Below, piece after piece: positions 12,864-33,923 of a DNA stretch of 33,923 nt. The notes under the pieces were generated by a model. It had not been told where the DNA came from. It did not search any database and worked only from the letters and a program-made list of their open reading frames with translations. A program made the translations under genes and the position numbers. Numbering within the stretch: position 1 is the stretch's first letter; every line of letters starts with the position of its first letter. The stretch lies in contig CAIRTT010000351.1 of NCBI GenBank assembly GCA_903881535.1, forward strand, positions 1 through 33,923. The letters are read 5' to 3'. The DNA is from an uncultured Armatimonadota bacterium (lineage in GTDB: Bacteria > Armatimonadota > Armatimonadia > Armatimonadales > Armatimonadaceae).

Positions 12864-12994
12864 ACGCGGGAAACATTTGCAGTCGTCGGTGTGGGGATTG
12901 GTTTGCGATAACCTAGCACAACTTGGTGTCGCACGTCAATCAACTGCATCGTCAGATGATAGATGTGCCCGACCTGGGAGGGGTTCAAACTGGT

Positions 12995-15900
12995 ATGGAG
13001 ATTCAGCATTCGGCAAAGCGCGCGCAGCATGCGGCCGGCATTCCCAACCTCATTCAACTTCAATTGGATTCGTTTCGTTGGTTTCTTGAGGAGGGATTGC
13101 ACGAACTGTTCCTATCGTTCTCTCCGATTCATGACCACACGGGCACCATCACCATTGAGTTGATTGACTTCACCCTTGGGGAGCCCAAATACACGCTCGA
13201 GCAGTGTCGCAGCCGTGATGTCACATTTGAGTCTCCGATCAAGGTGCGTGTTCGTTTAACCACGGCGCACGGTGAAGTTAAGGAATCCGAGGTTTACCTT
13301 GGCGACCTTCCACTGATGACGGAAAAGGGTACGTTTATTATCAACGGTGCTGAGCGCGTCGTTGTGTCTCAGCTTTCCCGGTCTCCTGGCATCTATTTCC
13401 GTGATGAACTTGACCTCACCCTGAACTGGCAGTTCTCGGCAACCCTGATCCCTTCTGAGGGTCCATGGGTTGAGATCGAGACAGATACATCCGAGGCAGT
13501 GATGGTCCGGATTGGTCAGAACAAGAAGTTTGCCATCACGACTCTCCTTCGTGCCTTAAACGATCCTAGTCTTCAAAACGACTTGGTGCGTGACCGCCTG
13601 TTGAACCAGGATGAGCTGAGCGGTGTCTTCAATGTTGACTACCGTGAGGCGGTTGGTAAGACGCTTGCCGAGCACGTTGTCGACAACGTAACCGGTGAAG
13701 TTATCTTTGAGGCTGGCTATTCTGTTGTCGCCGCTGACCGTGCAAAGTTCGTTGAACTCGCCGGTGGTGAAGAGTATCTGCGTAATCATCGCCTTAAAGT
13801 GATGTTCAAGGATCCGCAGTACGAAACCGACACACAGATTCTGGAGCGCTTCGGAACGCGTACTGAATTCCAGGCACCGCGCGGTGGCACGGATGAAGAA
13901 CGCGAGCTCTTCGTTACTTCCATTGTGGATACCTATGCCCTGCAGGACTTTGTGTCATCGGCAGGAAAAGTTGTTGCCAGTCCTTATCAGCGGGTTGACA
14001 AAACGGTTGCCAAGACCATTTTGGAGACACTTGAAGCTGAGAATTCAGATGGCATCGTCACGCTGTTGACAGTGCCTAAGTATCTGAACGCGACGCTTGA
14101 TATCGAAGAAGCGAATGTTGTAGATTCCAAGTCCGCGATGTTTGACATTCACCGTAAGCTGCGTCCAGGCGATCCGCCATCCGATGAATCTGTGAGAACC
14201 ATGCTCCGCGGCATGTTCTTCGATGTTCGCCGGTACGACATGGCCAAAGTTGGTCGTCACAAGCTAAACAAGAAGCTCTCGACGCTGCAGATTCCTCACA
14301 AGGTTCGCTGGATTACCCGTACGGATATCTGTGCGATTATTGACTACCTCATCGGGATGCAGGCTGCTGCACGCGCTGATGGTCAGGATGAATCACGTTC
14401 ACGCTATACCCCGGATGACATCGACCACCTTGAGAACAAGCGTGTACGTTCCGTTGGGGAACTGCTTTACTCACAGCTCCGAATGGGCTTCCTCCGTATG
14501 GAGAAGGTTGCCAAGGAGCGTATGACATCGATGGACTCCGATGACATGCTTCCGCCACTTGTCCTTTCGGTCAAGCCGGTGTCCGCTGCCATCAAGAGCT
14601 TCTTCGGGTCATCCCAGCTCTCCCAGTTCATGGACCAGACTAACCCGCTTGCTGAAATTACATCCAAGCGACGTTTGTCCTCCCTCGGACCGGGTGGTCT
14701 TTCCCGCCAGTCGGCCAAACTTGAAGTGCGTGACGTTCACCACTCCCACTACGGCCGGATCTGTCCTATCGAAACGCCTGAAGGACCTAACATTGGTCTG
14801 ATTGGTTCCATGGCAGTGCAGGCACGTGTTGACCAGTTTGGCTTCCTCGAGACGCCTTACCGTAAGGTTATCAATGGCCTTGTCACCCGTGACCTCGAGT
14901 GGCTGCCTGCTGACAATGAGCACCACTACAAGATTGGCCGCGCTCCGCTTGAGGAGGACATTAACGAGGATGGAACATTCAAGTCCAAAACCGTTCAGGT
15001 CCGCTTCAATAGTGACTACCCAGTTGTTTCGACTGGTGAAGTGCAGTTCGTGGATGTCTCTCCTCAGCAGCTGGTTTCTGTCGCGACTGCGATGATTCCA
15101 TTCTTGGAAAACGACGACGCAAACCGTGCACTTATGGGCGCGAACATGCAACGTCAGGCAGTGCCAACGGTTCGCCCGGCGGCGCCTCTTGTCAAGACTG
15201 GCATGGAGCGCAAGGCTGCAGTTGATTCTGGGGCTGTGATTCTTGCAAAGCGTAACGGAACTGTGCATCGTGTTACGAGCAAGGAAGTTGTCCTCAAGAC
15301 GCCACGCGGCGAGTTTGACCGCTACGTCCTGCTGAACATGGTCCGCTCTAACCAAGGTACCTGTATTTCACAGCGTCCAAAGGTTGATCTTGGTCAGGTA
15401 CTCCGTACGGGTGATCTGATTGCGGATGGGCCATGCTGTGACAATGGTGAGCTTAGCCTTGGACAGAATGTCCTCGTTGCGTTTATGCCATGGAATGGCT
15501 ACAACTACGAGGATGCTATTCTCCTTAGCCAGCGACTCGTAAAGGATGATGTTTTCACATCCATCCACATCGAGAAGTATGAACTCGAAGCCCGTGACAC
15601 CAAGCTCGGACCTGAGGAAATGACGCGGGACATCCCTAATGTCGGTGAAGATGCCCTCAAGGACCTCGATGAAGATGGAATCATCCGCATCGGTGCTGAA
15701 GTCCGCTCAGATGACATTCTGATCGGTAAAGTCGCGCCTAAGGGTCAGGGAGAGCTGACGGCGGAAGAGCGCCTGATTATCGCAATCTTTGGTAAGAAGG
15801 CTGAAGATACTCGTGATGTATCTCTCCGTGTTCCACACGGTGAGAAGGGCAAGATTGTCGACATCAAGGTATTCAGCCGTCATAAGTACCGGTGCCGCGT

Positions 15901-17113
15901 TTGTGATGCCGAATTCAACTTCTCCAAGAAGCCTGAGAACGAGGATTGTCCAAAGTGTGAAGCGCGTACAGGTCTGCAAAAGCTAGCCGGTGATGATGGT
16001 CTTCAACCAGGTGTCAATAAGCTCGTCCGTATCTACATCGCCCAAAAGCGTAAGATTATGGAAGGCGACAAGATGGCTGGACGTCACGGAAACAAGGGTG
16101 TTGTTTCCAAGATTCTGCCTGAAGCCGATATGCCATTCCTCGCGGATGGAACACCGGTTGACATCGTGCTGAACCCACTGGGTGTGCCTTCACGTATGAA
16201 CATTGGTCAGATCATGGAAACCCACCTTGGTCTAGTGGCAAAGGAATTTGGAATCCAGTTCAAGGAGCCAATCTTTGAAGGTTCAACGGAAGCCGAAATT
16301 CTGAGTGAAATGGGGCGCTATGGCCGCCGCCGCCGCCGGGAAATGCTGAATACCTACCTCCGGAGCGATCTGGAAGTGGATGTCGAGCTTTCCGACGACG
16401 ATGTCGATGTCGAAGACCTCCTTGCGACGGTTCGTGCTGCATTCGTTGAGCTGGATGCCGATGAACTCGATCGTATCTCTGAGATTCTTGCCGGTCCTCC
16501 GGTGGGCGACACGATTCCACGTAACTACGGATATGACCGTCTCTTGGAATCCCTCCGGGATCGTGTCTGGGCACGCGTAGGGTTCTATGACAAGACCTGC
16601 AAGTCCCAGCTGCGTGATGGCCGTACCGGTGATGATTTCAAGATGCCGATTACCGTTGGTCGTATCTATATGCTGAAGCTTGCCCACCTTGTGGATGACA
16701 AGATTCACGCACGTAGCACTGGTCCTTATTCGCTGGTTACCCAGCAACCACTTGGTGGTAAGGCACAGTTCGGTGGACAGCGCTTTGGTGAGATGGAAGT
16801 TTGGGCGCTTGAGGCCTACGGCGCCGCGTATACCTTGCAGGAGATTCTGACCATCAAGTCTGACGACGTCATCGGACGTGTGAAGACCTACGAGTCGATT
16901 GTCAAGGGAGATGCGATGCTTGAGCCTGGAGTACCTGAATCCTTCAAGATTCTCGTTAATGAGCTTCAGTCGCTTGGTTTGAAGGTGACCGTCGAAGATG
17001 CGAAGGGTGATGAGATCGATCTTCGTGACAAGGATGAGGACTACCTCGAGGATGAAGCGCAGCGTCGAAGGTCGCAGCTTCGCCAGCGCGAGGAGTATGA
17101 CGCACTGCCTTAG
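12995..17113 (+). CDS. rpoB: DNA-directed RNA polymerase subunit beta
   Basis: MEIQHSAKRAQHAAGIPNLIQLQLDSFRWFLEEGL..., GTFIINGAERVVVSQLSRSPG, GDKMAGRHGNKGVVSKI, KAQFGGQRFGEMEVWALEAYGAA. SD GGGAGGGG before ATG 12995; the ORF extends upstream to 12923. Confidence 0.99.
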   Translation: MEIQHSAKRAQHAAGIPNLIQLQLDSFRWFLEEGLHELFLSFSPIHDHTGTITIELIDFTLGEPKYTLEQCRSRDVTFESPIKVRVRLTTAHGEVKESEVYLGDLPLMTEKGTFIINGAERVVVSQLSRSPGIYFRDELDLTLNWQFSATLIPSEGPWVEIETDTSEAVMVRIGQNKKFAITTLLRALNDPSLQNDLVRDRLLNQDELSGVFNVDYREAVGKTLAEHVVDNVTGEVIFEAGYSVVAADRAKFVELAGGEEYLRNHRLKVMFKDPQYETDTQILERFGTRTEFQAPRGGTDEERELFVTSIVDTYALQDFVSSAGKVVASPYQRVDKTVAKTILETLEAENSDGIVTLLTVPKYLNATLDIEEANVVDSKSAMFDIHRKLRPGDPPSDESVRTMLRGMFFDVRRYDMAKVGRHKLNKKLSTLQIPHKVRWITRTDICAIIDYLIGMQAAARADGQDESRSRYTPDDIDHLENKRVRSVGELLYSQLRMGFLRMEKVAKERMTSMDSDDMLPPLVLSVKPVSAAIKSFFGSSQLSQFMDQTNPLAEITSKRRLSSLGPGGLSRQSAKLEVRDVHHSHYGRICPIETPEGPNIGLIGSMAVQARVDQFGFLETPYRKVINGLVTRDLEWLPADNEHHYKIGRAPLEEDINEDGTFKSKTVQVRFNSDYPVVSTGEVQFVDVSPQQLVSVATAMIPFLENDDANRALMGANMQRQAVPTVRPAAPLVKTGMERKAAVDSGAVILAKRNGTVHRVTSKEVVLKTPRGEFDRYVLLNMVRSNQGTCISQRPKVDLGQVLRTGDLIADGPCCDNGELSLGQNVLVAFMPWNGYNYEDAILLSQRLVKDDVFTSIHIEKYELEARDTKLGPEEMTRDIPNVGEDALKDLDEDGIIRIGAEVRSDDILIGKVAPKGQGELTAEERLIIAIFGKKAEDTRDVSLRVPHGEKGKIVDIKVFSRHKYRCRVCDAEFNFSKKPENEDCPKCEARTGLQKLAGDDGLQPGVNKLVRIYIAQKRKIMEGDKMAGRHGNKGVVSKILPEADMPFLADGTPVDIVLNPLGVPSRMNIGQIMETHLGLVAKEFGIQFKEPIFEGSTEAEILSEMGRYGRRRRREMLNTYLRSDLEVDVELSDDDVDVEDLLATVRAAFVELDADELDRISEILAGPPVGDTIPRNYGYDRLLESLRDRVWARVGFYDKTCKSQLRDGRTGDDFKMPITVGRIYMLKLAHLVDDKIHARSTGPYSLVTQQPLGGKAQFGGQRFGEMEVWALEAYGAAYTLQEILTIKSDDVIGRVKTYESIVKGDAMLEPGVPESFKILVNELQSLGLKVTVEDAKGDEIDLRDKDEDYLEDEAQRRRSQLRQREEYDALP

Positions 17114-17211: not shown

Positions 17212-20200
17212 ATGGCAGACGCAAGTACATTCGACAAGATTCGCATTGGTATCGCATCCCCAGAACAGATTCGCATATGGTCACATGGCGAAGTCAAAAA
17301 GCCGGAGACGATTAACTACCGGACATACAAGCCGGAACGTGATGGTCTCTTCTGTGAGCGTATTTTTGGTCCTACCAAGGACTGGGAATGCCACTGTGGC
17401 CGCTACAAGAAGCATAAGTTCAAAGGCGTCGTCTGCGACCGTTGTGGCGTTGAAGTCACCCGGAGCAAGGTTCGTCGCGAGCGGATGGGACATATTGAGC
17501 TCTCAACACCTGTGTGCCACATCTGGTACCTCAAGGGTGTTCCAAGCCCACTAGCACTCATCCTTGACATGACGCCACGGCCACTTGAGAAAGTTCTATA
17601 CTTCCAAAGCCACATCGTCACAAGTGTCGACAAGGCTACCATCGCTGCACGTATGGATGAATTCACCCGTGCCGTCGATGAGGAATCCGAAGCTATTCGT
17701 GAAGAGCGAGATATTGCGATTCGTGAGTACCGTGAGGAGTCCGCAGAAGAAATCGCCAACGGTCGCATTGTTGAGGATTACGAAGATCCAGAGGCAGAGC
17801 CAATCCGTGAGCCGCTGACTGAAGAAGAAATCATTCATCTGCAAAAGCGCGTGCACGACCGTGTTGAGCAGGAAGCAAAGGATGCGGAAGACCGCATCAC
17901 CGAGCTCCGCCAAGCGCTGGATCTGATACCTAATATTGACAAAAAGGCCCTTATCGATGAAGACCAGTGGAGGTTGATTGAAACCCTCCTGGATGTCATC
18001 GCCAATCGTGTGGATGAAACTCTCTACACGGTTGTTGAGGCAGGCCAAGGTGGTGCATCCATCCGTAAGCTGCTTCTGGAAGTTGACCTCGACGTAGAAC
18101 AGCGCAAAATCCGCCAGGACATTAAGGAACTTCAAGAGCAAGCACGTCTGCGTAAGGCTGCACGCTCCGATGATGCGCCTGGTCCTAAGATTGTGCGTGC
18201 GATCAAGCGCCTCGATGTCTTTACTGCGTTTATCGATTCGAAGAGCCGCCCTGAGTGGATGATTCTCGACTGTGTACCGGTCATCTCGCCTGAGCTGCGT
18301 CCTATGGTCCAGCTCGATGGTGGACGTTTTGCGACGTCTGACCTTAATGACCTGTACCGCCGTATCATCAACCGTAACAACCGCCTGAAGAAGATTCAGG
18401 AAATCCGGGCACCAGAGTCGATTGTCAACCATGAGAAGCGCCTGCTGCAAGAAGCCGTCGATGCCCTCATCGACAACGGACGTCGTCAGCGCCCTGTAAC
18501 GGGCTCCAACGGTCGTGCACTCAAGTCGCTTTCTGACATGCTCAAGGGCAAGGAAGGCCGGTTCCGCAAGAATCTGCTTGGAAAGCGTGTTGACTACTCG
18601 GGACGTTCGGTTATTGTTGTTGGACCTGAACTCAAGCTGCACGAGTGTGGCTTGCCAAAGGAAATGGCCCTTGAGCTGTTCAAGCCATTCGTCATGAAGA
18701 CGCTGGTCGACAATGGCTCGACAAGCAACATCAAGACCGCCAAGCGGATGATTGAGCGGATGCGACCAGAGGTCTGGGATGCACTCGAAAAGGTGGTCAA
18801 GGAGCATCCAGTGATGCTCAACCGTGCACCAACTCTGCACCGCCTTGGAATTCAGGCATTCGAGCCTAAGCTCGTGGATGGCAAGGCTATTCAGCTCCAC
18901 CCACTGGTTTGTAAGGCATTCAATGCTGACTTCGATGGCGACCAGATGGCTGTTCACATCCCGTTGAGCTCCCATGCACAGGCGGAAGCCCGTGTATTGA
19001 TGCTTGCAAGCCACAACTTGTTCTCCCCGGCAGATGGTTCTCCAATCGTTTCGCCACAGCAGGACATTGTTCTTGGTGCGTTCTTCGTCACGATGGACAA
19101 GTGGGATTCAGTACCGTATTCCGAAGCTAAGCAGGCTATTGGCAAGGTCGTAATCGATGACATCTTCGAAACCTATCAGCCAGATGCAAGGGGCAAGACC
19201 AAGGAACCGAAGCTGATCGTTGGCAAGGATCGTTTGGTTACACTTGATGATGCTAAGAAACTGATAAAGTTAGGTGAGGGAACGCTGCGTTATGGCTCGT
19301 CGTTGATCTTCGGATCCCCTGGCGATGCGATGTATGCGTACGACAATAATAAAGTTGACCTCAACGAGTATGTTCTGTACCGCAAGGGTCCAGGGCAGCC
19401 ATTGTTCACAACCACGGTTGGTCGTGTGATCTTTAACGAGATCGTCCCAGATTCCCTTTGGGTGAACGTGGCGATGGACAAGAAGCAGATTACACGCCTG
19501 ATTGCCGCTGTCCACATGGGCTATGGTGCTGAGCGTACTGTCAAGTTCCTCGATGACCTCAAGGAAATCGGCTTCAAGTGGGCTACACGTGCAGGGATTA
19601 CCTTCGCGATGACAGACATGCAGTCGCCAGAATCCCGTAAGGAAATCCTTGACAAGACGGAACGTGATGTAGACAAGGCCAACAAGCAGTACCGCCAAGG
19701 AATGCTGTCTCCTGCAGAGCGAAAGCAGCGTGTGCTTAAGCTTTGGACGGATGCGACCGCCGAAATCGGAAACGAGATTGTCAAGCACATCGACCGCTTC
19801 AACCCGGTATCGATTGTTACGACATCTGGAGCCCGTGGTTCCATCAAACAGGTCTCGCAGCTGTCCGGTATGCGTGGTCTGATGGCTGATCCGTTTGGAA
19901 ACATCATCGAAAACCTACCAGTGAAGTCCAACTTCCACGAAGGCCTCTCGGTACTCGAATACTTTGTTACTACCCACGGTGCACGTAAGGGTCTGGCGGA
20001 TACCGCACTTCGAACTGCGGATGCTGGTTACCTCACACGCCGCCTCGTGGATGTCGCACAGGATGTGATTATCCGTGAGCTCGACTGTAAGACGATCAAG
20101 GGTGTGACTGTTAAGGCATTTACCGACATTGAGCCGCTTCATGAGCGCCTCCGTGGACGTACATCGCTGCATGACATCACAAATCCTAAGACGGGTGAGC

Positions 20201-21795
20201 TGCTGATTGCCTCGGGAAGCATCTTCTCTGAAGTTATCGCAAAGCGTGTTGAAGCATCTGGAGTTGAAAAGGTTGAGCTCCGCTCAGTCCTCACATGTGA
20301 GAGTCGTCAAGGCGTCTGCGCCAAGTGTTATGGCGAGGACCTCGCGACCCGTAAGCTCGTCGAAATCGGCGTTGCAGTCGGAATCATCGCAGCACAGTCC
20401 ATCGGTGAGCCTGGAACGCAGCTAACGATGCGAACCTTCCACACCGGAGGCGTTGCAACGGCCAACCAGTTGACCGGTGTGGCTAACGTCCGCCGTCAGC
20501 GAAACCAGAACCTCCAGGTCCTCTTTGAAGATCAGGAAAAGGGTCAGATCTCGCTTGGTGGAGATGGCGAAGGCAAGCAGCGTGAGAAGCAACGCCAGGT
20601 GCAACAGCTCCTGAAGGTTGCTGAAGAGCAGGTTGGTGGTCTTCTCCGTGTTGTCGAGCTCTTCGAAGCCCGCCAGCCAAAGGGTAAGGCTATCGTTACC
20701 GAGTTCTCCGGAATCGTTGACAAGATTGACTCGAGTGGTGGTCTCCGTAAGGTAATCGTTCACCACGAGAAGCAGGTCAAGAGAGCAAACTCTGATCTGT
20801 TCGATCCGAAGCAGGTTCAGGGCGAGTGGGCGGTCGTGGATGTTGTACATCCTGAAACCGGCGATGCAATCGTTGTCGCAGGACAGCAAGTCACCGAGCC
20901 ATTGGCACGTAAGGTCGCAGCCGCTGGTGTTGAGCGGGTCCTTGTACGCAAGGAAACACTCGTACCGCACCGTGGTGAGCTTCTTATCAAGGAAGGTCAG
21001 CGCCTCGAGCGTGGTGCACCGTTGACCCATGGACCGATGGATCCCCATCGTGTTCTTGAGCTCAATGGCGCGGATGGCCTAATGGAATACCTCGTTCGCG
21101 AAGTCCAAACGGTCTACAAGCAGCAGGGTGTGGACATCAATGACAAGCACATTGAAGTCATCGTCCGCCAGATGTCCCGTAAGCAAAAGGTTGTCAAGGC
21201 TGGAGCTACCGAGTTCCTGCCAGGGCAAGTTGTCGACAAGTTGATGCTCACTGATGCTAACAAGCGTCGTGAAGAGCTGAACATTATGCTTGAGAGCCAA
21301 GGACGTATTGTGGTTCGTGACCACGATATCCATACCGAGGATGACATGTCGGTTCCAGGTCAGCGTGCTATCGCTGCTCCGGTGCTGATGGGTATTACGG
21401 ATGCATCCCTGAACACGGAATCATTCCTCTCTGCGGCCAGCTTCCAGAAGACCACGCGTGTTCTGACCGAAGCAGCTGTACGTGGAAAGCGTGACCACCT
21501 CGTTGGACTCAAGGAAAACGTCATCATCGGACGCCTTATCCCAGCGGGAACCGGTTTGCCAACCTACCGAGCCATTGAAGTGGTCACGGAAGATGGCCGA
21601 GCAATCGGTGTCTTGGATATGCCCGAGATTCCAGATGTCGATGGTGGCACATCAAGGACTGAAATCCTGTCCATTGATGATGCTGCAGCAGCACTTGGTG
21701 GAGACATTGATCTCAGTGCGCTGATGGGGGATGTTGTTGTAGATGACACCCTTGAGGCCGTTGCAGATGTCTCTGTTGATGTCGACGCAGAGTAG
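17212..21795 (+). CDS. rpoC: DNA-directed RNA polymerase subunit beta'
   Basis: 1527 aa; [57 protein letters not shown] 6 nt upstream of the ATG. Confidence 0.99.
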
Positions 21796-28885: not shown

Positions 28886-29400
28886 ATTTCAGGTGGTATA
28901 CCGCCATCACCGATATTGGCAGGGATTGGGTAACCAATACGCAGGTCCTTTTGTGCTCGTAACCAAGCATATTGAAAGGCCGCATCCAGTAAGGCATCCC
29001 AGTGGTAGTACGTCTCACTCACATCTTCGACGTGAAACAACGCCCTTCCTTGAGAATCGCTTCCTGTAGGGGCATCGTGCATTTTGGTGACCGACGCAAT
29101 GTAAGCATTGGCTGCCCCAGCCGTACCATCTTCGGCAGTCAGGACAAATGCTCCCAGCTTAGTCAGCGGGCCGAGCTCGATTCCTGCTTCTTCCATCGCC
29201 TCGCGGTGTGCGGCAGCTTCTGGCTGTTCACCCGGCTCGATGTGTCCGCTGGGCGTGCACCATCCACGGTTGATAATTTCCGCGAGCACGATGAGGTCCC
29301 CGTAAAATGGAAAGACGACAACGTGGGTAACGGGTGCATCCGTGCTGAGGACGAACTCTGCTTGGTAGCTTCCCCACTTTGCTTTTGGGAATTCAGTCAA
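28882..29400 (-). CDS. NUDIX hydrolase
   Basis: 172 aa; Nudix box [29 protein letters not shown] overlap with uvrA. Confidence 0.93.
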
Positions 29401-29611
29401 TGCTGAGCAGGTCTTGCAGATTGGTGGCGAACAAATCGATGCGCCCGCACATTTCGCAGACTTTTGCTGTGACAGGGGATGTCGTTACGGAAGCAACACC
29501 GAGAAAGTCATCGGATGCCTTACCCGTGATTGTAATGCGAGCATCCCCATTACCAACCTGAAGGCGGCCTTTGTGCATTTGACCGCCGCACGCGGCACAT
29601 GTGTTTTTCAT
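29393..29611 (-). CDS. Small zinc-ribbon protein
   Basis: 72 aa; MKNTCAACGGQM...KVCEMCGRIDLFA; two CxxC pairs. Overlaps the Nudix start by 8 bp. Confidence 0.75.
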   Translation of the reverse strand: MKNTCAACGGQMHKGRLQVGNGDARITITGKASDDFLGVASVTTSPVTAKVCEMCGRIDLFATNLQDLLSID

Positions 29612-29643
29612 AGCGCGTCTATCCTACCAAACAGAAGCGGTAT

Positions 29644-30198
29644 CTAACCGGGGGTCATTTCCCAAAAGTCTTTGCCAACGATGTCAAATGGCAGGCGATG
29701 TTCATCTGGCGCGGTTGCATCGAAATGCTGGTTCACAAAATAAACCAGCTGGCTGGTGGTGTTACCAACATTTGCACAGCCGTGTGCGACGCCGCGTGGG
29801 ATGAAGAGGAGGCGCGAGACGCCGCCGCCGAGGAGAAGGCGCATTTGTGCATTCAGGGTTGGGCTGTCCGCGCGGGCATCCACGAGGCCAACCAGCAAGC
29901 GCTCCGTCGGTGGGACAAACCAGACATCATCCTGGTTGTAGTGAATATGAAAAGCCTTGATAGCCCCTACCTGCACGACAGACCATGAGGACTGCAAGAC
30001 TTGAAAGTCAGGGATTGCTACGAGGCGGCCATTTTGATCGAGGCGGATAATTTCAGCGAAGGCGCCACCATCATCCTGGAAGGTACGCAGCTCGATGATC
30101 TTGACACCCTCGATGTTTGTGCGGGGGGCATAGCTCTGCGTGGTCAGGACACTTGCGTAGTCGGGGTGGATGGCGGATGTGGACAGGCGTTCGGCCAT
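29644..30198 (-). CDS. rmlC: dTDP-4-dehydrorhamnose 3,5-epimerase-like protein
   Basis: 184 aa; NIEGVKIIELRTFQDDGGAFAEIIR, IKAFHIHYNQDDVWFV, IPRGVAHGCANVG, LVYFVNQHF; adjacent to rmlA. Confidence 0.85.
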   Translation of the reverse strand: MAERLSTSAIHPDYASVLTTQSYAPRTNIEGVKIIELRTFQDDGGAFAEIIRLDQNGRLVAIPDFQVLQSSWSVVQVGAIKAFHIHYNQDDVWFVPPTERLLVGLVDARADSPTLNAQMRLLLGGGVSRLLFIPRGVAHGCANVGNTTSQLVYFVNQHFDATAPDEHRLPFDIVGKDFWEMTPG

Positions 30199-30201
30199 AA
30201 C

Positions 30202-31098
30202 TTATCTGGTCTCCGGGAGGTTAGGTTTGGATTCGCTTGCGATACGACGCAGGTAAGAGGCATAGCCTGTTTTACCGAGGGCATCTGCTCCTGCAATGAC
30301 ATCTTGTGCAGAAATCCAGCCGCTTTGCAGTGCGATTTCCTCAAGACAGGCGATTTTCAGGCTTTGCCTTCGCTCGATGGCAGCGACAAAGTTACCTGCT
30401 TCGAGGAGGGCATCGTGGGTGCCGGTGTCGAGCCAAGCGGTTCCGCGGCCAAGAATCTCCGCGTGGAGATCATTTTTGGCGAGGTACATCTGGTTGACAG
30501 TGGTGATTTCCAGCTCACCGCGATGGCTTGGTTTTACGGCAGCTGCGACATCGGTGATGTCACTGTCATAGAAGTACAGACCTACAACAGCGTAGTTTGA
30601 CTTTGGCTGTTCGGGTTTTTCTTCAATGGAGATGACGCGTCCGGATGCATCAAAGTCCATTACGCCGTAGCGCTCTGGATCTGCGACGTGGTAACCGAAG
30701 ACGGTTGCACCGGACTCGCGGGTAGCGGCTCGTCGGAGCTGTTCGGGAAGACCGTGGCCGTAGAAGACATTGTCGCCGAGGACAAGGGCTGCTGGTCCGC
30801 CTGCGATGAAGTCTTTCGCAATGTGAAATGCCTGTGCCAAGCCTTCAGGGCGCGGCTGGACGGCGTATTGCAGATTAATTCCGTACGCACTCCCATCCCC
30901 GAGGAGGCGTTCAAACAGAGGCAGGTCATCAGGGGTACTGATAAGCATGATGTCCCGGATTCCGCTCAACATCAGGGTCGAAAGCGGGTAGTAAACCATC
31001 GGCTTGTCGTAGACAGCCATCAATTGCTTTGATTCGGCTTTTGTTGCTGGGTACAGGCGTGTTCCACTACCACCTGCGAGGACTATTCCCTTGCTCAT
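30202..31098 (-). CDS. rmlA: Glucose-1-phosphate thymidylyltransferase
   Basis: 298 aa; [78 protein letters not shown]. Confidence 0.97.
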
Positions 31099-31140
31099 TG
31101 TTACATTCTACGCCTCGGGTCGAAGTTGCGCCGGATAGGC

Positions 31141-31169
31141 TTGACGGGGCATATCGACCCCGCTACACT
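31141..31169 (+). promoter_or_regulatory. Putative sigma70-type promoter
   Basis: TTGACG-(17)-TACACT, ending 12 bp upstream of the ATG at 31182. Confidence 0.65.
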
Positions 31170-31181
31170 CTCCTACAGCGC

Positions 31182-32813
31182 ATGACCGAATCAGACGAAC
31201 TCCCGTGGAACAGTATGTCCATAAAATTGCCGGCGGAAGCATTTGTTTCCGGTGGCTTTTTCGATGAGGCGCTTGGTTTCAATGCGGCTGCTGGGCGTGG
31301 CACCCTGCGTGTTTCTGTTACAGCGACTGAGTCGTGGCTGTCGTTCGTGCCGAAAACATTTGCGCTTGCGGCGGGCGAGAGCATCGCTGCAAATGTCACT
31401 GTGGATATCGCTGCGGCGAAGCGGATGGTCGAAGGGGGCCGGCCTCCGATCGGCGAGCTGCAAATAACGTTTGAGCAACAAAACACGGCAGGTGTACGTG
31501 TCGAACGGACAGCAAACATTCCTGTCCAGCTTCCCGTCGCCGTTTGCCCATGTTGTAAACGCGTTCTACATATTCCAAGCCATCGTGGTGCCAAACCCCC
31601 GACAGTTTGTATCCATTGTTTTGAGCGCCTGCGCCCGTGCCCTCACTGTGGTGTTCTGAATACCTGGCGGGTTCGAACCTGTCTTGTCAGCCCAAGTCAC
31701 ATCATCCGGGCGAGCGAAGACTGGGTCACCCTTGGCGGAAACAGTCAACACACGAGCAACGCTGATGTGCCTCTTGGTGCCGGTGCCCTGATTTGGCAAT
31801 TCCCGTTAATGCTGCAGACCAATCCGCTCCGGCGTTTGCAATGGTCATCTGTGGTGACCGCGTTCGGTGTTGTCTATGCTGCAAGCACGACCGGGGATGG
31901 CGAGCATTTGCTGCACGCATTTGATGTCGAATCAGGCATGCCCATTTGGGATCCATATGTGCTGGCGGCGCCAGTTCACCCGGATCGCGGCGGAGTTTGT
32001 ATCGTCGGCGAGCTTGTCGTGGCAGGTTTGGTGAATGGAAGCGTGCTTGCGATCGATGCGATACGCGGGACGCGGCGCTGGCTGGTGGATATCGGTGGCT
32101 CCGTTTACGGCTCGGTCATTCCGGTGAACTTGGCAACCGTTGCCGTTCCGGTCGCGGATGGCATCCATGCAGGACGCTTGGTTATGCTCACCACGGATGG
32201 CGGTCGTATCAAGTTTGAGGTTCCGCTGACTGGCCGTCCGGAGTGCACACCCGCTGCCGGTGGGAATACAATTGTCGTCCACGATGACACCGGCGGTGTC
32301 CTTGCGGTAAACGCATCTACGGGGGACACGCTTTGGTACACACAGCTGGCTGACTGCTTTGATGCGGCTCCCGTTATCGCGGATGGCGTGGTTTATTCCG
32401 GCGGCCACGATGGCATTCTGCGTGCACTGATGATGACGAGCGGGACACTCATCTGGGAATCACCTGTTCTTGGCGGCGCCATTACAGGTACGCCCAGCAT
32501 CGGGGACAGTGTTCTTGCCGTTCCGACTGTTGAGGGCCTTTGCCTTGTCAGCCGCGAAACTGGGCAACCGGTCCAGCGCACCAGCCGCGGTCCAGTGCGC
32601 GCGCAACCGATTGTCGCCCCAGATGGCTTTCTCTTTGCAGGACGGGATGCACGCTTGCATCGCTTGGCGGCCGGGATGGCAGTGGATGATGTCTACGATG
32701 CTGGCGGTGGCGGGCCTCAAGTCAGTGTCCCAATGGCGTATGCCGATGGCAATGTGTTCCTTGCAACCACACGTGGCGTGCTCTACGCCCTACGCATGAC
32801 AGGGGTGCTCTAA
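31182..32813 (+). CDS. Ig-like domain, zinc ribbon and PQQ-like beta-propeller protein
   Basis: From ATG at 31182. N-terminal beta-rich domain (GTLRVSVTATESWLSFVPKTFALAAGESIAANVTVD); CPCC...CIHC...CPHC cluster; then propeller-type repeats (GALIWQFPL, GTRRWLVDIGGSVYGS, GDTLWYTQLADCFDAAPVIADGVVYSGGHDGILRAL, GTLIWESPVLGGAITGTPSIGDSVLAV). No signal peptide evident. Confidence 0.8.
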   Translation: MTESDELPWNSMSIKLPAEAFVSGGFFDEALGFNAAAGRGTLRVSVTATESWLSFVPKTFALAAGESIAANVTVDIAAAKRMVEGGRPPIGELQITFEQQNTAGVRVERTANIPVQLPVAVCPCCKRVLHIPSHRGAKPPTVCIHCFERLRPCPHCGVLNTWRVRTCLVSPSHIIRASEDWVTLGGNSQHTSNADVPLGAGALIWQFPLMLQTNPLRRLQWSSVVTAFGVVYAASTTGDGEHLLHAFDVESGMPIWDPYVLAAPVHPDRGGVCIVGELVVAGLVNGSVLAIDAIRGTRRWLVDIGGSVYGSVIPVNLATVAVPVADGIHAGRLVMLTTDGGRIKFEVPLTGRPECTPAAGGNTIVVHDDTGGVLAVNASTGDTLWYTQLADCFDAAPVIADGVVYSGGHDGILRALMMTSGTLIWESPVLGGAITGTPSIGDSVLAVPTVEGLCLVSRETGQPVQRTSRGPVRAQPIVAPDGFLFAGRDARLHRLAAGMAVDDVYDAGGGGPQVSVPMAYADGNVFLATTRGVLYALRMTGVL

Positions 32814-33923
32814 GTGTCTGATGTTCTCCCTGCTTTTCTGGTAAAGCAGATTGAAAATGCCGGAATCATGGCAACGCCCCAGCCCGATGTAACTGCGTGG
32901 ATTGGCTCGGATAAACGCACGGGTCGCCCGGTGATGGTTCGGCGGATACCCAACACACAAGTGGCACAAAGTCGACTGACGACAGCGCTTGATGCCGTCC
33001 ATCAAACGGTTGTACCGTTCCGCCGTTGGATGCTCATTGATGACAATATCTACACCGTCAGGGATGTCCTTAAGGGAAAGAATCTCCGCCAGTATTGGAT
33101 GGGTGTCGGCGGGCGTGCGGATACGGAGACGCTTCGGCGCTGGATTGTGCCACTCCTAGATGGACTAGCCGCTTTTCACGCTGTGGGAGCAGTACATGGT
33201 GGGCTTTCCTTGGACAACTTAATCGTCGGGGATGACCTACGGATGTACATTACCGATGGAGGCATCTGCGACCCCATGGCGGCACACCATGCAACTGTAT
33301 ACGGACCTGGAGCTGGGCCCGCATCTGATATTGCCGCTGTGACCAAGCTGGTAATCGCTCTTCTTCCAAAATCTGGTCCCTTTGCAAGCCCAGTTGTACG
33401 TGCCCGTGTTGAAGGACTTGTGTTGCGCTGCGAGACACTTGCCGCTATCCGGGAGGTCCTTGAAGGCCTGGACGGAATCGCGATGGACAGTATCACCAAA
33501 GCCGGTGGTCAACCCAGCGCGGGCGACATGCAGAGTGGATTGCCAGGAACGCGTGTCGACAAAGGACATCCAAGGCTGGTTTGTGATCAGCTCGATCGCT
33601 GCACCATTGTTGCAGGGAGTGGCGGCGAGCTGAATCTGTCTATTCGCAATACAGGCGAGGCGACATTACTCATTCGGGTCGTCGCCACCCAGCACCCTTG
33701 GCTCAATGTTCGCCAGATACCTCTACCGATTGTGATTGCTCCAAATGGAACAGGCAGAATCCCGTTTGTCGTGAGCGCTGCTCGCCTCGCCCCCGGGGAT
33801 TATAGGAGTCAGGTGTTTCTGTCGACCAATGCACCAGGAGGCCAGGCCGAAAACCTCGCCAGTGGATGGTATCGACACACAGCAGCTGTCACTGCACGTA
33901 TTATCAACGCAAGTTACCGGTGA
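32814..33923 (+). CDS. Ser/Thr protein kinase-like protein (probable pseudokinase) with C-terminal Ig-like domain
   Basis: GTG start directly after the upstream TAA. Kinase-like VHGGLSLDNLIV (HRDLKPxN position) and ITDGGIC (DFG position) without the catalytic HRD Asp; C-terminal beta-rich region GGELNLSIRNTGEATLLIRVVATQHPWLNV...LAPGDYRSQVFLSTN. Confidence 0.75.
   Translation: MSDVLPAFLVKQIENAGIMATPQPDVTAWIGSDKRTGRPVMVRRIPNTQVAQSRLTTALDAVHQTVVPFRRWMLIDDNIYTVRDVLKGKNLRQYWMGVGGRADTETLRRWIVPLLDGLAAFHAVGAVHGGLSLDNLIVGDDLRMYITDGGICDPMAAHHATVYGPGAGPASDIAAVTKLVIALLPKSGPFASPVVRARVEGLVLRCETLAAIREVLEGLDGIAMDSITKAGGQPSAGDMQSGLPGTRVDKGHPRLVCDQLDRCTIVAGSGGELNLSIRNTGEATLLIRVVATQHPWLNVRQIPLPIVIAPNGTGRIPFVVSAARLAPGDYRSQVFLSTNAPGGQAENLASGWYRHTAAVTARIINASYR

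Follow-up and report, generated by a model that had tools for sequence, protein, structure and literature searches.

What do the two genes that close this contig encode, and do they form a module of their own? The window, i.e., the whole stretch of DNA analyzed here, comprises 33,923 nucleotides of an Armatimonadota MAG (G000, 673 contigs). An initial annotation had described its last two genes as a two-gene module that it did not recognize as a named system, whose products may form a cytosolic scaffold assembled through a shared Ig-like domain. Below, we show that the pair is part of a larger operon, and that the set co-occurs with a poorly studied bacterial relative of tubulin.

Two abutting genes at a contig end

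The reported gene arrangement was borne out. Two plus-strand ORFs, hereafter gene 1 and gene 2, directly abut (TAA-GTG) and diverge from the minus-strand genes rfbC/rfbA, from which an 83-base gap separates them (Table 1). The gene 2 ORF is complete, its stop codon occupying the final three positions of the window. An Rfam scan of positions 29000-33923 found no RNA. The dTDP-rhamnose genes rfbC/rfbA (window 29644-31098) also lie divergent from the propeller gene in genera g1 and g6, as does rfbC in g4 (loci L049, L057, L060, L164, and L166).

Table 1 Features of the operon and its borders, in window coordinates
Feature	Position	Strand	Evidence or remark
Divergent intergenic region, rfbA to operon	31099..31181	.	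One sigma-70-like match, + strand 31141-31169; consensus match only
Gene 1, Ig-like / double zinc site / 8-bladed PQQ-BamB-like propeller, 543 aa	31182..32813	+	Pfam, AlphaFold, fold match
Gene 1 N-terminal Ig-like domain, residues 5-117	31194..31532	+	Strands E26-34 to E106-116; profile match to gene 2 Ig
Gene 1 two predicted zinc sites, residues 122-173	31545..31700	+	CPxC-x17-CxxC and CPxC-x10-Cx5H
Gene 1 beta-propeller, residues about 200-540	31779..32801	+	Pfam, AlphaFold, fold match
Gene 2, pseudokinase + C-terminal Ig-like domain, 369 aa	32814..33923	+	Pfam, AlphaFold, Foldseek, orthologue alignment
Gene 2 kinase-like domain, residues 7-231	32832..33506	+	AlphaFold pLDDT mostly 75-90; Foldseek to PknB/Stk1/PLK4
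Gene 2 degenerate HRD motif V-H-G-G-L-S-L-D-N	33192..33218	+	Catalytic Asp replaced by Gly, Asn135 kept
Gene 2 C-terminal Ig-like domain, residues 255-364	33576..33905	+	AlphaFold strands, profile match to gene 1 Ig
141-base overlap with contig C158	33783..33923	+	Operon carries on in C158

The operon continues beyond the window

The contig end, which coincides with the gene 2 stop codon, is an assembly break. Past the overlap, which occupies L003:1-141, contig C158 encodes a vWA protein (L003:166-1362), a TM protein (L003:1344-2012), and then a MATE transporter. Further members beyond position 33923, a prospect that the initial annotation had raised, were therefore found, and the idea of a module of only two genes did not hold: the vWA and TM proteins belong to it, and the set goes with Tubulin_2/FtsZl1. 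In the related MAG G003, the contig also breaks, no more than about 15 bases from the same stop and with an exact 141-base overlap (L049/L050); these twin overlaps were probably left by the k-mer limit of the assembler, in sequence that is shared or varies between strains. The gene order across the break is safe because in G002 the end of the propeller gene and the pseudokinase, vWA, TM, and MATE genes follow one another without a contig break (L051).

The vWA protein has a signal peptide, a TM segment, and a C-terminal beta domain. Its MIDAS is intact (DVSGSM, T126, and D154; 13 relatives aligned). The C-terminus gave no match to Pfam FHA and may be FHA-like by a reading of the alignment only. 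The TM protein, a small, multi-TM membrane protein, has a beta domain predicted to be extracytoplasmic, hydropathy being the basis for the topologies given here.

Domain architecture of the two proteins

Gene 1 was confirmed to encode a beta-rich N-terminus, a CxxC cluster, and a PQQ-like propeller. Pfam PQQ_2 matches it with an E of 1e-21, and two Cys/His sites (C122, C125, C143, and C146; C153, C156, C167, and H173) have all eight of their positions invariant in the orthologue alignment. The G003 orthologue is identical in start and length. The AlphaFold model (pLDDT 76.8) has BamB as its top fold match (TMt 0.79), which could suggest a role in outer-membrane assembly like that of BamB, or else a PQQ enzyme, the neighboring gene then being unrelated. 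While the 8-bladed PQQ-type propeller fold is common to both proteins, gene 1 carries additional Ig and zinc domains, its zinc ribbons are of a cytosolic type, and it has neither a signal peptide nor an N-terminal hydrophobic segment. It also scored 75 bits against the BamB equivalog, for which the cut-off is 285, and we regard this explanation as extremely improbable. A hydrophobic stretch at residues 273-291 was rejected as a TM helix since it sits in propeller strands. The Ig-zinc N-terminal part of gene 1 was detected in none of 232 genomes outside the order, with at most 13 candidates scored per genome.

Gene 2 likewise proved to be, as described, a degenerate kinase fold followed by a beta-rich domain. 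It matches Pfam Pkinase weakly (22.9 bits, cut-off 31.7), and its AlphaFold model is a two-lobed kinase fold. The fold, the Asn, and the DFG-Asp are common to gene 2 and the bacterial Ser/Thr kinases PknB/Stk1; in contrast to these, the gene 2 family lacks the HRD Asp and has an Ig-like C-terminus. The catalytic Asp is missing in 16/16 orthologues, where Gly, Ala, Ser, or Val takes its place, and because the replacement extends to all of them, the loss is ancestral to the sampled family. The Asn and the DFG-Asp are retained in all 16 and the VAIK Lys in 13, so that most members may still bind nucleotide; in the window genus, this Lys is Arg and the DFG motif reads DGG. Several orthologues, none of them in the window genus, have a C-terminal TM helix. 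This feature raised the candidate of type VII secretion, with an EssB-like pseudokinase, which we rejected since no secretion ATPase was recognized among the Pfam-scanned neighbors.

Searches for PADLOC and NCBIfam identities returned only generic matches. The kinase domain weakly matches MAD6 and PD-T4-6 in PADLOC, which would fit a conflict or anti-phage system with a kinase-like protein at its core. We consider such a system very improbable: only the generic kinase fold was matched, the distribution is family-wide rather than patchy, and none of the six other proteins tested (propeller, vWA, TM, Tubulin_2, and two coiled-coil proteins) matches PADLOC.

An Ig-like domain shared by both proteins

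Profile comparison relates the two Ig-like domains to each other, in agreement with the initial annotation. Their profiles aligned over 100 columns with an hhalign score of 34.7 (P 3e-5; 25.5 in the other direction), compared with 17.4 for the best of 100 column shuffles, 13.8 for the reversed profile, and 14.7-21.8 for an unrelated beta-rich TM ectodomain. In the two AlphaFold models, the order of strands corresponds one-to-one. The sequence motif proposed for the two domains fared less well: W-L-x-V holds to the letter for the pseudokinase alone (WLNV), since the window's propeller protein reads WLSF. Both profiles also match the same Ig proteins of family f3, which lie beside vWA and Tubulin_2.

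The Ig-like fold is common to the window domains, the HYDIN/VesB/CFA65-like Ig family (PF22544), and ASH domains. Those f3 proteins score 29.6 and 32.4 bits against PF22544, above its cut-off of 25.5, and the propeller orthologue in G011 also passes (26.3 bits), whereas the window domains stay under it, gene 2 matching weakly at 15.1 bits. One could imagine tubulin-family polymers assembled at the envelope by an ASH/HYDIN-type Ig, a pseudokinase switch, and a zinc-propeller scaffold. If true, the bacterial set would match in its composition the ASH-domain scaffolds of eukaryotic centrosomes and cilia. The parallel is tempting, but it is weakened because PF22544 is not enriched in genomes with Tubulin_2 (12/34 positive vs 12/27 negative genomes), and we give it little credence.

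Synteny and co-occurrence with Tubulin_2

In relatives, the full set reads propeller, pseudokinase, vWA, TM, coiled coil (CC), and Tubulin_2, the coiled-coil proteins being a membrane family. All six genes lie within about 12 kb in G008 of family f1 (L057; here with CC before TM), and pseudokinase-vWA-TM-CC-Tubulin_2 is contiguous in three loci of the sister family f2 (L059, L061, and L064). In g5, the set is split into propeller-pseudokinase (L052/L054), vWA-TM-CC-CC (L188/L189), and Tubulin_2 (L099/L100) loci. The adjacency of propeller and pseudokinase genes thus stood in part when homologs were surveyed: it is found in 9/12 f1 genomes (broken in one, with two too fragmented to judge) and is lost in f2, where 4 kb separate the two genes in G017 and about 45 kb in G014, while the remaining genomes have them on different contigs. 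Even without an adjacent propeller gene, the f2 pseudokinase stays with vWA-TM-CC-Tubulin_2.

Each of the four g1 genomes, as well as g6, has rfbA/rfbC beside the operon, and g4 has rfbC. The system could accordingly regulate how envelope polysaccharide (dTDP-rhamnose) is produced or exported, in a coupling with the divergent rfbC/rfbA. Other neighbors are found in g5, g7, and family f2, however, and no carbohydrate-binding domain was found in the operon proteins, making such a role rather improbable.

The genome from which the window derives also encodes Tubulin_2 (G000:C456:5681-6256, E 4e-40, cut by the contig end), as do G001-G003, and carries CC on a contig other than that of the window. 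Next to Tubulin_2 on the same contig (L095:1-6265), genes for proteins of 826, 209, and 139 aa are conserved within the window genus. Of the order's 19 genomes, 17 have Tubulin_2 and 17 have CC, 16 have the pseudokinase and 16 the propeller protein N-terminus, and 15 have vWA. G012 (96% complete) and G015 lack all five; the other gaps are isolated, and the genomes concerned are incomplete or fragmented. Because G012 and G015, both of f2, may share one loss event, the order-level p of 0.006 overstates independence. Among 61 genomes of the phylum, a full-length vWA protein was present in 18/34 Tubulin_2-positive and 0/27 Tubulin_2-negative genomes (p 1.9e-6, uncorrected for phylogeny). The pseudokinase and CC are almost confined to the window's order.

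Tubulin_2 shares an operon with vWA in L057, L059, L061, L064, L109, and L110 and is on a separate contig in the window genus, where the link to tubulin rests on co-occurrence and on the synteny of relatives. The vWA, pseudokinase, and propeller proteins might hence form a stand-alone envelope signaling complex, with Tubulin_2 a coincidental companion and not a partner. The tubulin locus is indeed separate in g1, g5, and g7, and locus L187 encodes DZR-Ig, ZnR-PQQ (profile A2, E 2e-61), vWA, and TM proteins in a row, with no pseudokinase and no adjacent Tubulin_2. Yet contiguous operons with Tubulin_2 occur in both families of the order, vWA lies beside Tubulin_2 elsewhere, the components are jointly absent from the same genomes, and vWA is missing throughout the Tubulin_2-negative set. 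We therefore judge a stand-alone complex unlikely.

A variant of the predicted vWA/FtsZl1 system

The context of the pair is not unknown, contrary to what was first supposed. Tubulin_2 (PF13809) is the FtsZl1 family, which was predicted to act in membrane remodeling together with vWA proteins, kinases, and GTPases, a prediction only (Makarova and Koonin 2010; PMC2875224). A study from 2023 left the family out of its trees on account of its excessive divergence (PMC9871819). Our literature search on FtsZl1/Tubulin_2, with most subscription journals outside its reach, returned comparative genomics and no experimental study. The set described here shares with the 2010 system a Tubulin_2 protein with a GGTGSG loop and a long C-terminal region, a vWA protein with a signal peptide and TM segment, a kinase-fold protein, and extra membrane proteins, often in one operon. 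It differs from it in several respects: the kinase is a pseudokinase fused to Ig, the main text of 2010 (PMC2875224) does not describe partners with a zinc-ribbon/PQQ propeller, an Ig-like domain, or a coiled coil, no GTPase or OmpA partner was seen, and the tubulin is encoded at a separate locus in the window genus. The set is a new Armatimonadota variant of the predicted vWA/FtsZl1 system, with components absent from that text.

The products of genes 1 and 2 are probably cytosolic scaffold or regulatory subunits of this membrane-spanning vWA/Tubulin_2 system. The earlier proposal of a cytosolic scaffold with a shared Ig domain is supported in part, by the missing signal peptide, the zinc-binding Cys residues, the pseudokinase, and the adjacency of the pair in most genomes of the family. 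The extracytoplasmic vWA domain, with its intact MIDAS, and the TM protein would serve as an envelope sensor or anchor. The pseudokinase, with its catalytic Asp lost and its Asn and DFG-Asp kept, would act as an allosteric switch that probably responds to nucleotide, and not as a phosphotransferase. The zinc-propeller protein may be a docking platform, and the Ig-like domains would connect the cytosolic subunits, either with one another or with the vWA and TM proteins. Once assembled, these parts would bring the tubulin-like GTPase to the inner membrane via the coiled-coil proteins and control it there, the outcome being envelope shaping or remodeling.

Within the tubulin superfamily, FtsZl1/Tubulin_2 forms a branch that is widespread but has hardly been studied. 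The analysis provides a defined parts list for one order. It comprises six families, and the five that were tested are all lacking in the same two genomes. A machine known only by prediction becomes directly testable in this way.

Related proteins in other Armatimonadota families

Other families of the phylum also link zinc-ribbon/propeller and Ig proteins to Tubulin_2. Four loci (L172, L173, L176, and L181) encode zinc-ribbon proteins of 459-486 aa upstream of Tubulin_2; of these loci, only L172 showed propeller evidence in the family search, a PQQ_2 match just below the curated cut-off. Their genes, at L172:3011-4468, L173:5286-6662, L176:3304-4728, and L181:4068-5486, belong to other Armatimonadota families or represent a second copy. 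Family f3 has the arrangement Ig-vWA-Tubulin_2 (L109/L110). The propeller, Ig, and vWA components reach further across the phylum than the pseudokinase does, a distribution suggesting that the latter joined the system later. Past Ig-vWA-Tubulin_2, the f3 locus L110:8967-15000 also encodes two coiled-coil-looking proteins, an Hsp70/MreB-like protein, and an Hsp70-vWA fusion.

Elsewhere in the window, rpoB (1396 aa, 12923-17113) and rpoC (1527 aa, 17212-21795) have Pfam domains stretched by large insertions, as in an Rpb2_1 match spanning residues 42-543.
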